Assembly: GCF_002019645.1 (NCBI RefSeq)
Contig: NZ_KV917374.1
Coordinates: 2,306,696 to 2,370,695, forward strand
Origin: Litchfieldia alkalitelluris
GTDB taxonomy: Bacteria; Bacillota; Bacilli; Bacillales; Bacillaceae_L
Reading direction: 5' to 3'
DNA length: 64,000 nucleotides
Shown here: one piece after another, positions 11,033 to 58,611 of the stretch
Position numbering within the stretch: the first letter of the stretch is position 1
How the letters are laid out: each line of letters opens with the position of its first letter
Position numbers and translations under genes: made by a program
The notes under the pieces: generated by a model
What the model saw: only the letters and a program-made list of their open reading frames with translations
What the model was told of the DNA's origin: nothing
The model's database searches: none

Positions 11033-11450
11033 AATAAAATGAGGGCTGCGAATCTATTGGTTCGCGGCTTTTTATGGTTTGGTGCAAGTTTACTTAGTTA
11101 GCGGAGTTCCAAACGCTGCGATCCACCTGCTTTCCGCGGGGCGGCCCGTGAGCCTCCTCGTCGCTTTTTGAGCTCCTGCGGGGTCTCACGAGACCGCTAG
11201 ATCCCGCAGAAGTCAGCTCTTCGCTCATTCCACACTATGGAAGACATTTAATACTTCATGGTGCGAATATTTAATTAGCATGGATTTCTTAAGGTTTATA
11301 GTCAATTTAGCAATGGGATTTTTTGTAAAAAAGAACATTCCCATTTTACAGCCCAAAATTTAATTAATGAAAAATATTGTGTAAGTATGTCATAATGTAA
11401 TAGGGTTTAGACTAGCATCTATGATGATTTTTATAAGGAGACAATGAAGT
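11033..11450. other. Intergenic region between the protease gene and folC
   Basis: A 418-base gap. It holds a possible terminator just after the stop (GCTGCGAATC and GGTTCGCGGC arms around a short loop, then five T, near 11043-11073), one inverted copy of repeat A, and a copy of the repeat linker (CATGGTGCGAATATT) near 11259. The last 40 bases carry the folC ribosome-binding site AAGGAG at about 11436. No further gene is visible. Confidence 0.6.
11104..11235 (-). repeat. Repeat A, copy 1 (inverted)
   Basis: GC-rich structured repeat in the orientation starting GGAGTTCC and ending CATTCCACAC. It contains the internal hairpin with CTCCTGCGG, GGTCTC, GAGACC and CCGCAGA(A)G blocks. The arm next to CTTCTGC appears to lack four bases compared with the other copies, so the closing stem is damaged here. 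The CATGGTGCGAATATT linker follows about 25 bases further on. Confidence 0.85.
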
Positions 11451-28692: not shown

Positions 28693-29065
28693 TATATTTT
28701 TAAATGAAAAGGAATTTTAATTACTTAGTTTGGAATGAGCGAAGAGCCACTTGACTCCTGCGGGATCTAGTGGTCTCGGGAGACCCCGCAGGAGCCCCAG
28801 TGGCGACGAGGAGGCTCCCGGGGACCACCCCGCGGAAAGCAAGTGGATCGCAGCGAATGGAACTCTTAAATTCAAGGTCTCAATAGGAAAAGTTTATTAT
28901 TAATCATTTTAATAAATACAGAAGGATAATTCCCACAATATGTTTTACAATAGAATTATCTACGTTGAAAATCAAATTTTCGAAAATTGTCTAGTGAAGC
29001 TGAATTTGATACGATAATGTAGTATCTTCCATTTTGATCAAAACTAAAGTTAAAGGGTGATTTAC
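28668..29065. other. Intergenic region between spoIIB and maf
   Basis: A 398-base gap. After the spoIIB terminator it holds a complete repeat A copy (28731-28866). The remaining 200 bases are AT-rich, presumably with the maf promoter; I see no additional gene. Confidence 0.5.
28731..28866 (+). repeat. Repeat A, copy 2 (full length)
   Basis: Reference copy of the family. The closing stem CCACTTG (28747-28753) pairs perfectly with CAAGTGG (28840-28846). Inside are a nested hairpin (CTCCTGCGG with CCGCAGGAG, enclosing GGTCTC and GAGACC) and alternative partners GGAGCC and GGCTCC. The ends read TGGAATGAGCG and GCGAATGGAACTC. Confidence 0.9.
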
Positions 29066-34626: not shown

Positions 34627-34830
34627 GGAACTCATCATAAGTGGAAAAATTCCGGCTAATGTATCTAATAGGGGCTTAAGAAGCAGATATAAGCGGAGAA
34701 ATTCCGGTTAACATCTCTAATATATGACTAAATCTAAAGATTATGGTCATATAAGCGGAAAAACTCCGGTAATTTTTAGGGAAATGTTGATATTTCCCAT
34801 GATAAGCGGAATTTTTCCGTTTAAATTCAA
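34627..34830 (+). repeat. Repeat C, copy 1 (four ATAAGYGGA...TCCG units)
   Basis: Four related units start at 34637, 34689, 34751 and 34802. Each reads about ATAAGCGGAnnnnnTCCGG, with CGGA and TCCG arms able to pair. Spacing is 52, 62 and 51 bases. The whole 200-base stretch has a diverged relative at 54356-54555 with nearly identical unit spacing (51, 62, 51) and conserved interstitial sequence. Confidence 0.8.
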
Positions 34831-35373: not shown

Positions 35374-35434
35374 GAGCTTTCTAATACATAGAAGGTTCTT
35401 TTTTGTTTATGATGTCTACCCTGAAAAAAGAAAA

Positions 35435-35551
35435 GCGGAAGGCACTCGTTCATCGGCGACAGGCATAAGGCAAGCCGGCTGGAAGGTTGCTCTTTAACCT
35501 TCTAGATGGATTGACTTAGACCTGAGAGCCGATAGCCTGGAGCTAGACACT
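35435..35551 (+). repeat. Repeat B, copy 1
   Basis: Contains CATCGGCGACAGGCATAAG, a central AAGGTT/AACCTT hairpin and GAGCCGATAG. The outer AGGCACT arm no longer matches its partner because the right arm has lost bases, so this copy is partly decayed. Confidence 0.85.
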
Positions 35552-35631
35552 AAGCTAAGTATAATTTTTCATCCTCCATGGTGCGAATATTTCATTAGCA
35601 TAGATGTCTACCCTAAGAATACAAAGTTAGC

Positions 35632-35770
35632 GGAGTTCCATGAGCTGCGATCCACTTGCTTTCCGCGGGGTGGTCCGTGAGCCTCCTCGTCGCCAGGGGC
35701 GGGCTTCTGCGGGGTCTCACGAGACCACTGGATCCCGCAGGAGTCAAGTGGCTCTCCGCTCATTCCACAC
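35632..35770 (-). repeat. Repeat A, copy 3 (inverted, full length)
   Basis: CCACTTG at 35652-35658 pairs with CAAGTGG at 35745-35751, preserving the closing stem. Internal CGGGGTCTC...GAGACC hairpin is present; the loop between the two inner hairpins is longer (CCAGGGGCGGGC). Confidence 0.9.
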
Positions 35771-35847
35771 TGAGGAGGAAACATTTTTTCATACTCCATG
35801 GTGCGAAATACTTATTTAGCATGGATGTCTACCCTGAAAAAAGAAAT

Positions 35848-35966
35848 GCAGAAGGCGCTCGTTCATCGGCGACAGGCATAAGACAAGCCGGCTAGAAGGT
35901 TGCTCTTTAACCTTCTAGCAGGATTGACTTAGACCTGAGAGCCGATAGCGCCTGGAGCTAGACACT
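35848..35966 (+). repeat. Repeat B, copy 2 (best-preserved structure)
   Basis: Three nested stems are perfect: AGGCGCT (35853-35859) with AGCGCCT (35947-35953); ATCGGC (35865-35870) with GCCGAT (35941-35946); and GCTAGAAGGTT (35891-35901) with AACCTTCTAGC (35909-35919). Confidence 0.9.
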
Positions 35967-36049
35967 ACGCTAAGTATAAAGTTTTTTCATCCCCCATGGT
36001 GCGAATTAAATTAGCGTAGATGTCTACCCTGAAAATACCTAATGATGTA

Positions 36050-36185
36050 GAGTTCCATGAGCTGCGATCCACTTGCTTTCCGCGGGGTGGCCCGTGAGCC
36101 TCCTCGTCGCTTCTGAGCTCCTGTGGGGTCTCACGAGACCACTGGATCCCGCAGGAGTCAAGTGGCTCTCCGCTCATTCCACACT
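36050..36185 (-). repeat. Repeat A, copy 4 (inverted, full length)
   Basis: CCACTTG at 36069-36075 pairs with CAAGTGG at 36159-36165. Internal hairpins are preserved with one change in CTGTGGGG. Nearly identical to copy 3 except in the inner loop. Confidence 0.9.
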
Positions 36186-36259
36186 AGGTGAATCCACTAT
36201 TTTCATACGCCATGGTGTAAATTCTCATTCGCATGGATGTCTACCCTGAAAATAGAAAT

Positions 36260-36380
36260 GCTGAAGGCGCTCGTTCATCGGCGACAGGCATAAGACGAGC
36301 CGGCCAGAAGGTTGTGCTTTTTAACCTTCTTGCCGGATTGACTTATGACCCCGAGCCGATAGCGCCTGGAGCTAGACACT
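36260..36380 (+). repeat. Repeat B, copy 3
   Basis: AGGCGCT/AGCGCCT and ATCGGC/GCCGAT stems are intact. The central hairpin has a longer loop (GTGCTTTTT) and CC-to-GG changes near its base. Confidence 0.88.
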
Positions 36381-36461
36381 AAGCTAAGTATAATTTTTCA
36401 TCCTCCATGGTGCGAATATTTCATTAGCATAGATGTCTACCCTAAGAATACAAAGTTAGCG

Positions 36462-36546
36462 GAGTTCCATTCGCTGCAATCCACTTGCTTTCTGCGAGGC
36501 TCACCACATGGCACGCGGAAAGGGCGTGGATCGCAGTGAATGGAAA
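36462..36546. repeat. Repeat A, copy 5: inverted pair of half elements
   Basis: The left part (TTCCATTCGCTGCAATCC...) and right part (...GGATCGCAGTGAATGGAA) are both the right end of repeat A, facing away from each other around GGCTCACCACATGGC. It is therefore a snap-back duplication of about 34 bases, not a simple truncation. A further fragment (GAATGGAACTC) lies at about 36570-36582. Confidence 0.75.
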
Positions 36547-39924: not shown

Positions 39925-40034
39925 ATTGTTTGTAGCACCCTTGCTACAACCGCACAGACCAGGTATTAAGATTTTAGTAGTAAAATGCTAAAGCACCTGC
40001 CGATGGCGAGTCTTAGTCCAAATTATAGGAGGTG
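39925..40034 (+). ncRNA. Ribosomal protein L21 leader
   Basis: A structured leader between a strong promoter and rplU. TGTAGC (39931-39936) and GCTACA (39943-39948) form the first hairpin; GACCAGGT pairs in part with AGCACCTG, and a CGATGGCGAG segment precedes the AGGAGGTG site. Such a leader is known upstream of rplU in Firmicutes, where ribosomal protein binding is thought to give autoregulation. Exact ends are estimates. Confidence 0.8.
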
Positions 40035-43076: not shown

Positions 43077-43117
43077 AAAAATATTCGCACCATGAAGGAT
43101 GAAAAGTATTAACATAG

Positions 43118-43249
43118 TTGGAATGAGCGGAGAGTCACCTGACTCCTGCGGGATATAGCGGTTTCGGGAGACCCCACAGGAGCCATAGGCGACGAGGAGG
43201 CTCCCGGATCGCCCCGCGGAAAGCAGGTGGATCGCAGCGAATGGAACTC
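43118..43249 (+). repeat. Repeat A, copy 6, flanked by split linker
   Basis: The closing stem is TCACCTG (43135-43141) with CAGGTGG (43224-43230): relative to copy 2, T-to-C on the left is matched by A-to-G on the right. Left flank (43082-43095) is the linker part ATATTCGCACCATG; right flank (about 43263-43278) is TTTTCAGAGTAGACA, the other linker part. It interrupts the spo0B-obg-pheB-pheA cluster. Confidence 0.9.
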
Positions 43250-43353
43250 GCTCAACTAGTTATTTTCAGAGTAGACAATATATTAAAGATAAGAGTTTGG
43301 ATGGGTATGTCATATAGACAAAAAGAGATATACCTTGAGGGGTGGGGAGAAAC

Positions 43354-44866: not shown

Positions 44867-44887
44867 TTGTATGAAGTAATTACTAAG

Positions 44888-45066
44888 TGTGTAATGAGCA
44901 AAGAGCCACTTGACTCCTGCGGGATATAGCGGTCACATGAGACCCCGAAGGAGCCAAAAGCGACGAGGAGGCTCATGGACCGCCCCGTGGCATCCCGCGA
45001 GTGGATTGCAGCGATTGGAACGCTCTAACCCTGGGGAAAGCGAGTGAACTGTAGCGAATGGAATTC
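44888..45066 (+). repeat. Repeat A, copy 7, with duplicated right end
   Basis: CCACTTG (44906-44912) pairs with CGAGTGG (44998-45004) using one G-T pair. The right end is present twice: GATTGCAGCGATTGGAACG, then GGGGAAAGCGAGTGAACTG...GCGAATGGAA up to 45062. The inner hairpin is somewhat decayed (CCCCGAAGGAG). Confidence 0.8.
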
Positions 45067-50885: not shown

Positions 50886-52637
50886 GTGAAAATCCATATT
50901 GTGCAAAAAGGGGAGACTCTTTGGAAAATATCTCAAAAATATGGCGTAGATTTTGAAGAACTTAAGAAATTAAATTCCCAACTGAGCAATCCTGATATGA
51001 TTATGCCTGGGATGAAAATAAAAATCCCAAGTGGGAATGTTCATGTGAAGAAAGAGCAAGTTGCAAATACTAGTCCGGTTCAGAAAGAAGCACAAGTGCC
51101 GAAAGAACAGCAAGTGCAGAAAGAACAAGTAAAGAAAGAACAAGTAAAGGCAGAGCATCCTTACAAGGATATATCGCCAGCACCTTCGCCGGTTCTAGGT
51201 GTTGAAGAAGCACTTCCTAAGAAAGAAGCTGTAAAGCCAACACCAAAGGCACCATACGTACCTAAAATGCCAACATCTATTGATGTGGACGTAGATCTAA
51301 ATAATCAAATGAATGTCAATATGCCGATCAGTAAGACGAATGTGTTTCCAGGAATGATGAAGCCAGAATGGGATGAAGTTGAATCAGTCAAAGAGGAGCT
51401 TCCACCAAAAATGCCTAAAATGCCTGAAATGCCAAACTTACCTAATGTACCAGCAGGTTATACACCACCACCACAAGTCGCTGGAGTAACGGACACACCT
51501 TATTGTGAGCCAATGACACCGGTGATGCCAGGAGCAGGATTTGACTTTCCAGGAGTACCACCAATGCCTGGTGGCGCGCCAGTAGGTCCAGTACCAGGAG
51601 GTTATCCACAGGTGGCACCAACACAGGGATTCCAACCGAATGTGCCTACAGATTTTGATGAAGATGATGATCTAGATTTACCACCTGCTCCACCATGGAA
51701 CACAGGAGTACCAGGAGCAGCAGCTGGAACTCCATATCCAGGAGCACCAGGAGCAGCAGCTGGAACTCCATATCCAGGAGCACCGGGAGCAGCAGCTGGA
51801 ACTCCATATGCAGGAGCACCGGGAGCAGCAGCTGGAACTCCATATCCAGGAGCACCGGGAGCAGCAGCTGGAACTCCATATCCAGGAGCACCGGGAGCAA
51901 CTGGAACTCCATATCCAGGAGCACCAGGAGTAGCTCCAGCGGGAACACCATACATGGGAGCACCAGATTTTGCGCCAACAGGAGCACCATATATGGGGAC
52001 ACCGGGAGTAGCTCCAGTAGGAACTCCGTACATGGGAACACCTGGAGCAGCACCGTTTAATCCTGCACCATATGGCGGTTATGCAACACCTCCTGGTTAC
52101 GGTTTTCAGGGACCAGTTGGACCAATGAGAAATGAATATCCTGTTTTACCAGGAATGTATGAGGAAGATTTTGAGGATGACGTAGATGCTGATGACACAC
52201 CTGGAGCTTATAATGGACCTGGAACTGTAGCACCTGCAGGATATCAAGGATATCCACAACCACAGATGCCACCAATGGGATACCAAGGATATCCTCAACC
52301 ACAGATGCCGCCAACGGCTTATCAGCAGCAACCATTCCCTCCTCATGGGAAAGATTGTGGATGTGGTGGTCCTACACCAATGCCACCACAAGGTTATCCA
52401 GGAGGCCCAGGGTATGGAGGCGCACCAAGTCCAGGCTATGGAGTGCCAGCCCCAGGAGGATATCCGACAGCACCAGGATACCCTGCTCCAGCGCCGGGGT
52501 ACGGTGTGGCACCAGGGTTCGCACCTGGTACACCAACATATGGCATGGGAATGAATCCTTATGACCCAACAAGATCAATGCCATACAATCCGATGTTTGA
52601 ATTACCTGATTTCGATGATGAAGAATCTGATGATTAA
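50886..52637 (+). CDS. safA: Spore coat morphogenetic protein SafA
   Basis: SafA organises the inner coat and binds the cortex in the mother cell. The N-terminal LysM domain (residues 1-50, [20 protein letters not shown]) binds peptidoglycan. A Lys/Gln/Glu-rich linker and a MP-rich segment follow. Residues about 275-390 hold nine to ten tandem units of 12-13 residues ([12 protein letters not shown] type), encoded by a 36-bp DNA repeat. The C-terminal part is rich in P, G, Y and M with [11 protein letters not shown] repeats and an acidic end. At 583 residues it is much longer than B. subtilis SafA (about 387). GTG start follows CAGGAGGGG. Position after nadA matches B. subtilis. Confidence 0.93.
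51710..52050 (+). repeat. 36-bp coding minisatellite inside safA
   Basis: About nine tandem units of 36-39 bp, the first five nearly identical in DNA, later ones diverged ([20 protein letters not shown]). The identity at synonymous positions shows recent expansion. It leaves several other frames on both strands open. Confidence 0.9.
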
Positions 52638-54355: not shown

Positions 54356-54555
54356 AGGACTCATAAGAGGAAAAAGTCCCGCTATTACATTTAGTTGGGG
54401 CTTAAGAGGCAATATAAGGGGAGAAATTCCCGTAAAATTCACTAATGTATGACTAAATCTAAAGGTTAGGTTCATATAAGTGGAAATTCTCCCGTTATTT
54501 TTAGGGAAATGTTGATATTTCCCAGTATAAGTGGAATTTTTCCCTTTAAATTCAA
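54356..54555 (+). repeat. Repeat C, copy 2
   Basis: Four units start at 54363, 54414, 54476 and 54527 with spacing 51, 62 and 51, as in copy 1. TCCGG of copy 1 is TCCCG here. The interstitial segments GGGGCTTAAG, TATGACTAAATCTAAAG and TTTTTAGGGAAATGTTGATA are conserved between the copies. Confidence 0.8.
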
Positions 54556-58410: not shown

Positions 58411-58444
58411 GACTGAATAGTTTCTAAAGAGGTATACACACTTA

Positions 58445-58577
58445 GTGTGGAATGAGCGTAGAGCCATGCCACTCCTGCGGGATATACGGTATAGGGGAGA
58501 CCCCACAGGAGCTTTGCGACGAGGAGGCTCCCCACGCCGCCCGCGGAAAGGGCATGGATCGGAGCGAATGGAACTAC
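58445..58577 (+). repeat. Repeat A, copy 8, inside the queA-tgt interval
   Basis: The closing stem is CCATGCC (58464-58470) with GGCATGG (58551-58557): a different sequence from other copies on both arms, yet perfectly paired. The inner hairpin CTCCTGCGG...CCACAGGAG is kept with one change, and GGTCTC is replaced by GGTATA. It interrupts the queA-tgt gene pair. Confidence 0.9.
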
Positions 58578-58611
58578 ACTACCTGAGTTTTTTTAAATAT
58601 TTTATGAATGA

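Follow-up and report, generated by a model that had tools for sequence, protein, structure and literature searches.

A covarying rod-like fold in an abundant, probably MITE-like intergenic repeat of Litchfieldia alkalitelluris and its relatives

Why should a seven-base-pair stem in a non-coding repeat keep pairing while its sequence changes from copy to copy? This question is raised by a repeat (core A) that recurs in a 64,000-nt stretch of the Litchfieldia alkalitelluris genome (i.e., the window). A first-pass annotation of the window had listed six copies, whose closing stems changed in sequence and still paired, and had taken this as a sign of selection on a folded RNA or DNA. We found the closing-stem arms as it had described them in all six listed copies (6/6). 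The arms are separated by 80-86 nt in these six window copies, and chance pairing at 7/7 positions (G-T allowed, loop of 75-95 nt) occurs in the window at a frequency of 0.0016. Two window copies had been missed, at 11099-11240 (-) and at about 36439-36499 (-), and the former counts against universal closing-stem pairing because its 5' arm is deleted. The copies and arms in the window are as follows:

28723..28870 (+), full copy of core A, the subject of the finding; match to covariance model R1, 102.2 bits
28747..28753 (+), 5' arm CCACTTG of the closing stem (P2) of that copy, checked in the sequence; covaries
28840..28846 (+), 3' arm CAAGTGG of the same stem, checked in the sequence
43111..43254 (+), core A with TCACCTG/CAGGTGG; R1 match, 112.7 bits; arms 43135-43141/43224-43230
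44882..45028 (+), core A with CCACTTG/CGAGTGG; R1 match, 91.6 bits; arms 44906-44912/44998-45004
58440..58581 (+), core A with CCATGCC/GGCATGG; R1 match, 107.7 bits; arms 58464-58470/58551-58557
35628..35775 (-), core A within an array of A and B; R1 match, 96.5 bits; arms 35745-35751/35652-35658
36045..36189 (-), core A within the same array; R1 match, 109.5 bits; arms 36159-36165/36069-36075
11099..11240 (-), core A with the closing-stem 5' arm deleted; R1 match, 98.9 bits, and sequence
36439..36499 (-), 3' half of core A; nhmmer match to model positions 123-184, 37.6 bits

Overall, we consider it probable that repeat A belongs to a MITE-like family with a selected rod as its core, moved by IS1595 transposases in relatives and multiplied as units of its own in this genome, a role as RNA being favoured for the fold. 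Repeat A would thus be one member of a very large family whose elements are short, non-coding and MITE-like, and its core of ~140 nt would be kept by selection as a long rod hairpin with a conserved apical loop of ~28 nt. In relatives, an IS1595-family transposase acting in trans would recognise the inverted ends and make an 8-bp target duplication. In this genome, the core would sit in a different frame and would have multiplied as units of ~220 bp, partly in head-to-tail arrays.

The closing stem of repeat A is real. All seven of its pairs are intact in 77 of 100 distinct copies from this genome, in which the fully paired arm combinations met most often are CCACTTG/CAAGTGG (48 copies), CCACCTG/CAGGTGG (9), TCACTCG/CGAGTGA (7) and CCACTTG/CGAGTGG (4). 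Covariation was measured with an in-house script modelled on R-scape, using an APC-corrected G statistic and null alignments simulated along a tree built with FastTree. The helix-level covariation of the closing stem within this genome was 20.8 (null: 0.47 +- 2.54), a value reached by 0 of 300 nulls, and the stem thereby passes, at the helix level, the check for covariation beyond phylogenetic background that the annotation had proposed. P4a and P4b were also reached by 0 of 300 nulls each at the helix level in this genome. P3' showed no helix covariation here (118 of 300 nulls reach its score), and no single pair beat the null in this genome alone (best E 2.24).

The structure of core A is one long rod that ends in a sequence-conserved apical loop, with P1, purine loops, closing stem P2, an ACTC/AAAG loop, P3', P4 and the apical loop following one another. 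P1 is of the GTTGATT/ATCAAC type, two symmetric GGA/GGA purine loops flank a G-C/C-G step, and the ACTC/AAAG loop is conserved. P3' (CTGCGGG/CCCGCGG) is a long-range helix that covaries across relatives and holds a T-G pair in 98 of 123 copies. A variable GnGGnC..GTGAG stretch also pairs long-range, with CTCAC..GnnCCnC; the pairing covaries and is stacked on the closing stem to give one rod. The apical loop (28 columns) holds 1.72 bits per column as opposed to 0.99 elsewhere, although this high information, like the invariance of CCGCAGGAG and CGACGAGGAGGC, is partly imposed because the pattern used to gather relatives fixed these two sequences. The earlier view that selection acts on the fold rather than on primary sequence therefore stands for the covarying stem and does not extend to the apical loop, which is conserved in sequence.

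The inner helices that the annotation had drawn did not receive such support. The CTCCTGCGG/CCGCAGGAG helix is complementary in most copies and shows no covariation (129 of 300 nulls reach its score). Covariation was also not found for the GGTCTC/GAGACC helix (204 of 300 nulls), which is lost in diverged copies, or for the competing helix of the GGAGCC/GGCTCC type (GAGCC/GGCTC reached by 139 of 300 nulls). With six pairs forced, folding CTCCTGCGG/CCGCAGGAG as RNA costs 3 to 16 kcal/mol more than the rod in five of six copies, and in the sixth (L207) it gives the best fold; on these modelled energies, the pairing may be an alternative state. In principle, CTCCTGCGG/CCGCAGGAG could form a pseudoknot with P4, but this was rejected, as position 38 covaries with 102 and not with the loop. 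In four loci (L112, L120, L123, L202) we noticed by eye that the 5' arm of core A is replaced by another palindromic stretch, which is of the CTCGAAAATGC..GCATTTTC type in the last three.

Could such arms match in the absence of any selection on the fold, simply by being copied onto each other through template switching at imperfect palindromes? Long perfect arms in some copies (L207, L125) would fit such a process, as would the two GGA/GGA loops being fully paired in 14 and 19 of 123 copies and the near-symmetric substitution intermediates described below. However, the purine loops are unpaired within a covarying stem in most copies, and together with the ACTC/AAAG loop they are conserved and mostly unpaired between covarying pairs; that mismatch loops are kept in this position speaks for selection on the fold. 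Moreover, the matching of P3' and P4 is independent of that of the outer arms, and the model recovers the fold from 66 of 83 genera. We regard template switching as an improbable explanation of the fold. Gene conversion between palindrome arms, which the annotation had named as what would undo its own reading, likewise leaves the unpaired purine loops unexplained and may contribute where these loops have become fully paired.

The core fold covaries very strongly across relatives. In a sequence-only alignment (116 copies), the top seven pairs are all helical, two of them at E=0.04. Among the copies aligned to the covariance model (CM; 123 used), 8 pairs had E<=0.05 and 11 had E<=1, the 13 top-scoring pairs were pairs of the model, and the mean over the 32 model pairs was 52.1 (null: -0.06 +- 1.7, maximum 4.7 of 200), bearing in mind that the CM alignment leans towards structure because it was fitted to structure, which the sequence-only alignment was not. 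A separate counter gave 83.5% paired cells, compared to 67.5% in shuffled and 35-47% in slid alignments, and 638 cells changed on both sides, compared to 207 in shuffled ones. The covariance model was built from 34 sequences, i.e., 29 of 38 diverse copies and five window copies; the nine left out mostly had rearranged or missing arms. Realignment of 98 of the 115 remaining named loci, together with the window, gave 133 matches, of which 10 rows were dropped before the covariation test (identical or >15% gaps). Five rows of the relatives' pattern scan (L113, L122, L143, L146, L204) were also dropped, by eye, as chance matches in GC-rich coding DNA.

The fold was recovered in 114 of 150 genomes of the order, i.e., in 66 of 83 genera (21 candidates scored per genome, stricter filters), whereas a sample of the phylum yielded it in only 2 of 199 genomes, one being the window's own and the other of the same class. 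The repeat family is thus nearly confined to the window's own order in the samples taken. Carriers among the matches listed include Bacillus, Neobacillus, Cytobacillus, Gottfriedia, Peribacillus, Sporosarcina, Planococcus and Ureibacillus. The comparison with Rfam that the annotation had suggested brought up no Rfam 15 family for the repeat: at the gathering score, it had no match in the window or in 18 relatives' loci, and the element gave four weak rows far below gathering at a permissive threshold. No description of the repeat was recognised in the open literature searched. Such repeats tend to be written off as junk or recorded species by species; here, one fold that has no Rfam 15 match could be traced statistically through 66 of the 83 sampled genera of an order.

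How might such a repeat have spread? The annotation had not proposed a mobile element, though the evidence points to one. In relatives, the core lies between inverted ends (GGCTGTGTTAAA / GGCTGTTTTC / GGCTCTTTTC). Under a strict pattern, paired ends were found for 16 of the 117 copies in relatives' loci, and 101 of 117 were without a pair. The flanking 8-mers were alike at 7-8 of 8 positions in 10 of the 16 strict-ended copies (permuted mean 0.88, maximum 7; 10,000 permutations). Neobacillus sp. SuZ13 (G060) held 75 end sites (control: 4), which gave 14 close inverted pairs, picked by position with the flanks not looked at (14 of 20 stretches analysed; L290-L295 left out). Ten of these 14 elements measure 182-187 bp, two (L286, L287) measure 308 bp and by eye contain a B-like stretch inside the apical loop of A, and two are short forms that lack the full core, with flank matches of 7/8 (L289) and 5/8 (L288). 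The 8-bp flank identity in this genome was 6.93/8 (permuted 3.55, maximum 5.43 of 10,000) and exact in 4 of 14, and the per-base identity peaked at length 8 when lengths of 5-10 were compared.

Presence and absence could be followed at one orthologous intergenic site in nine genomes. The element is present in G060 and G066, with a diverged copy in G068 (outside the site alignment and looked at separately); four genomes align without the element and two hold unrelated sequence. With the element carried by three of nine genomes and lacking in six, the pattern may reflect insertion or an old presence with losses. The repeat shows features expected of a MITE: terminal inverted repeats and target duplication in relatives, and a short, dispersed, extragenic form with presence/absence differences. 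The inverted ends, the 8-bp duplications and the match of these ends to IS1595 transposons together argue for a MITE-like element with a selected fold. We infer from the common ends, the duplications and the presence/absence pattern that the whole element moves as DNA in relatives. Core A also occurs between other outer inverted ends (of the GGGCACTGAAAA and GGCTGGGACAAAA types) in L142 (Ureibacillus), L117, L153, L211 and L221; flank duplications around these copies did not appear in our scan, which suggests further carrier frames or terminators.

A candidate for the mobilising enzyme came from PF12762, with four loci in the 14 genomes searched. One of these (L319, in genome G001 of the window's genus) is an element 2,009 bp long that has GGCTCTTTTCGTATAGATTGTTGCT and GGCTGTTTTCGTAAACTTTGTTGCT at its ends; the ends of the MITE copies are GGCTGTTTTCGTATAGATTGTTGCT and GGCTGTTTTCTCAAAGTTTGTTGCT, and the left end of L319 matches the right end of the L207 MITE at 24 of 25 bases by eye. 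The transposase is Pfam DDE_Tnp_IS1595 (59.5 bits, cut-off 27). Such ends were not found at the other three of the four genome loci (L316-L318). The exact duplication at L319 (TAATATAA), and the matching ends with duplications of 7-8 of 8 at five of six plasmid IS1595 loci, should be read with the duplication having formed part of the score that chose the ends; a like search in 60 control loci gave no GG-ended pair with an exact duplication. The sixth plasmid locus (L325) had no such ends, and one of the five, from a Pontibacillus plasmid, has another end type (GGCTCTGTTAAAG..TGTTGATATT). Judged by these ends, at least two IS1595 end types provide frames in which the core is carried, and IS1595, named from the common ends, is probably the enzyme family that moves the element in relatives. 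Insertion sequences of this family resemble the relatives of repeat A in their ends and their 8-bp target duplication; in contrast to them, repeat A is non-coding with a conserved fold, and the IS1595 copy L319 lacks the core motif. None of the window's genome (G000), G042 and G060-G068 (nine genomes) gave a PF12762 match, and therefore the enzyme has been lost, was missed or is foreign there.

Other carriers were considered and set aside. An ISL3 mobiliser, guessed from the GG ends and 8-bp duplications, was rejected with DDE_Tnp_ISL3 in 0 of 3 genomes (G000, G060, G061), as was a Y1/RAYT mobiliser, since nothing significantly similar to the unit lay in the flanks (~1.5 kb) of eight Y1 transposase rows (best E 0.07). 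Spread by phage was also rejected: no phage record matched, and seven viral-contig rows were dropped as chance coding matches by eye. Five plasmid records had a match. We noticed in passing that each of the IS1595 elements L319, L320 and L321 has a further gene between its ends, on the opposite strand, namely an alpha/beta-hydrolase-like frame (by eye), DinB and a hypothetical protein, respectively. In addition, L245:1450-2247 (+) encodes a Y1-transposase-like protein of 265 aa whose C-terminal end is HTH-like (RAYT-like, by eye); it is followed by its own short, GC-rich direct repeats.

In the window's genome, the repeat is abundant and differently framed. The core sequence GCGACGAGGAGGCTC has 280 matches with <=2 mismatches in 5.43 Mb (reversed control: 1), and all 150 of the candidates scored with the covariance model, from 798 in the genome, match it. 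These 150 copies form 122 clusters, 22 of them multi-copy, without a replichore strand bias (45:26 vs 26:25, p=0.20). The unit consists of a small stem-loop (GTAGAC-nTCCATGC..GCACCATGG..TGAAAA), core A and then TTTTCAGGGTAGAC, and measures ~220 bp in arrays. A further GC-rich hairpin repeat, element B (TGTCTAGCTCCAGGCGC..CGCCGATGAACGAGCGCCTTC), has its unit frame in common with A. The array in the window comprises:

35401..36499 (-), head-to-tail array in the order B, A, B, A, B, half A (window coordinates); repeat analysis
35411..35536 (-), first of three hairpin elements B (others 35824-35949 and 36236-36361); direct repeat family D4
36239..36252 (-), unit end TTTTCAGGGTAGAC, also at 36022, 35827 and 35414; sequence

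Units in this genome are bounded by direct GTAGAC motifs and not by IS1595 ends, and IS1595-type inverted end pairs were not seen in the frame of the window's genome. A different, sequence-specific or single-strand mechanism (of the Y1/HUH type or site-specific) may act here, inserting beside the unit-end GTAGAC and building arrays. Such a mechanism would fit arrays that are all head-to-tail (0 of 122 clusters of mixed orientation), with a spacing of mostly 206-221 or 408-417 bp, and a fixed TTTTCAGGGTAGAC unit end, whose 33 exact sites in 464 kb follow an A core (18), a B core (13) or neither (2). Among 12 isolated copies from this genome, no clear target duplication emerged (mean best match 6.08/8 vs 5.87 +- 0.18), and GTAG is the tag of REP elements. 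However, unequal recombination alone likewise yields head-to-tail arrays, and the flanks of the eight Y1 transposase rows, as described above, do not significantly resemble the unit. Furthermore, a copy in G002 (L297) has the IS1595-type end GGCTGTGTTAAAG on its left and TGTAGAC on its right, and these mixed ends hint that the GTAGAC frame of this genome may be a worn IS1595-type frame. We consider a separate GTAGAC-directed mechanism rather unlikely, and retain the reading of a MITE-like family multiplied as units of its own in this genome. The site of the copy at 28731 gave no model match in the orthologous stretches of two genomes of the same genus (G001, L309; G002, L308).

If the element moves as DNA, why is a fold kept inside it? 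In 464 kb of this genome, a called ORF encloses 1 of 33 clusters (after removal of ORFs <250 aa that overlap copies), a gene on the same strand precedes 23 of 33 clusters (p=0.035), and the repeat strand is that of the genes in 16 of 22 co-directional contexts (p=0.052). The element would be read through within gene transcripts, and the shown strand would fold as a stable RNA rod, which would make an insertion tolerable or useful, e.g., by protecting upstream mRNA. On the shown strand, five of six copies tested have the rod as their lowest-energy RNA structure, as opposed to two of six on the other strand. Selection for such a read-through rod is our tentative preference as the reason for the fold, falling slightly short of an even chance, and a role at the DNA level ranks next.

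Under the latter reading, the fold would be selected as a single-stranded or extruded hairpin handled by the transposase or the replication machinery, with RNA irrelevant. Changes through wobble and A-C intermediates on the tree bear on this choice, and their ratio is close to even, at 68:43 for the comparison across species (p=0.02) and 54:44 for this genome (p=0.36), or about 14:7 and 4:6.5 on internal branches, compared to 18:0 in the stems of 16 tRNAs from the same loci, a control selected by a tRNA finder. Such near-symmetric counts speak against an RNA step and for a DNA fold; however, many copies are decaying, and in dead copies this too would bring the ratio towards symmetry, which leaves it compatible with RNA or DNA. 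The symmetric GGA/GGA purine loops are a motif stable in DNA. Both strands of the window copy as single-stranded DNA also beat shuffles (z -3.08 and -3.05), and three other copies gave z -1.65, -2.43 and -2.39. Against a DNA fold, transposition of the IS1595 (DDE) type is not known to need a folded core, short forms that lack the full core exist between such ends (L289 and L288), and the rod is the RNA minimum more often on one strand than on the other. We think a DNA-level role unlikely, and continue to favour the RNA rod.

A broader reading is possible, although we lean against it: the ~140-nt core may be an independent selected module, older than its carrier transposons, whose single fold has been kept in most of the order's sampled genera. 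It would sit in frames with two or more IS1595 end types and in another, array-building frame together with B, doing a job for host or element via its fold and conserved apical loop. If so, the core would be a common cassette that protects transcripts or binds proteins, present in each genome in hundreds of intergenic regions. With 280 core matches in this genome, any effect on transcript stability would be genome-wide. With the fold traced and the probable enzyme family named, the long retention of a precise internal fold by a miniature transposon becomes a testable question.

Several known repeat systems invite comparison. BOX elements of Streptococcus pneumoniae are modular, folded and intergenic, with tandem internal units. 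By description, repeat A shares the modular, folded, intergenic and tandem character of BOX; the two differ in host group and size, and in repeat A the tandem unit is the whole element, with B in its frame. REP/RAYT systems likewise have extragenic palindromic repeats, with GTAG at the unit end in this genome's repeat, but repeat A is much longer than REP, forms a multi-helix rod and has no Y1 gene linked by its flanks. The repeats bcr1-bcr3 of the Bacillus cereus group are described as intergenic, multi-copy, MITE-like and often in UTRs, and bcr3 as correlated with a longer mRNA half-life (PMC3446304); bcr1 is specific to the B. cereus group according to the title of Okstad 2004. As so described, they resemble repeat A in being intergenic, multi-copy and MITE-like in a Bacillaceae group, whereas, by description, the core of repeat A is found through the order and bcr1 is group-specific. 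Kristoffersen 2011 is also cited on the bcr repeats. Bhal-1 of Bacillus halodurans is a stem-loop family of 74 bp with 36 copies, according to Cozzuto 2008 (PMC2267715). By that description, Bhal-1 could be a piece of the repeat A family. Judged by these descriptions, bcr1-bcr3 and Bhal-1 are the nearest in kind to repeat A.

Other features of the window include a pair of 144-nt direct repeats, 87% identical, at 34687-34830 and 54412-54555, and tandem repeats of 36/39 bp at 51667-52042 in a long ORF region, a stretch apparently collagen-like and Gly/Pro-rich by eye. A ribosomal protein L21 leader (RF00559, 52.9 bits) lies at 39938-40023 (+).
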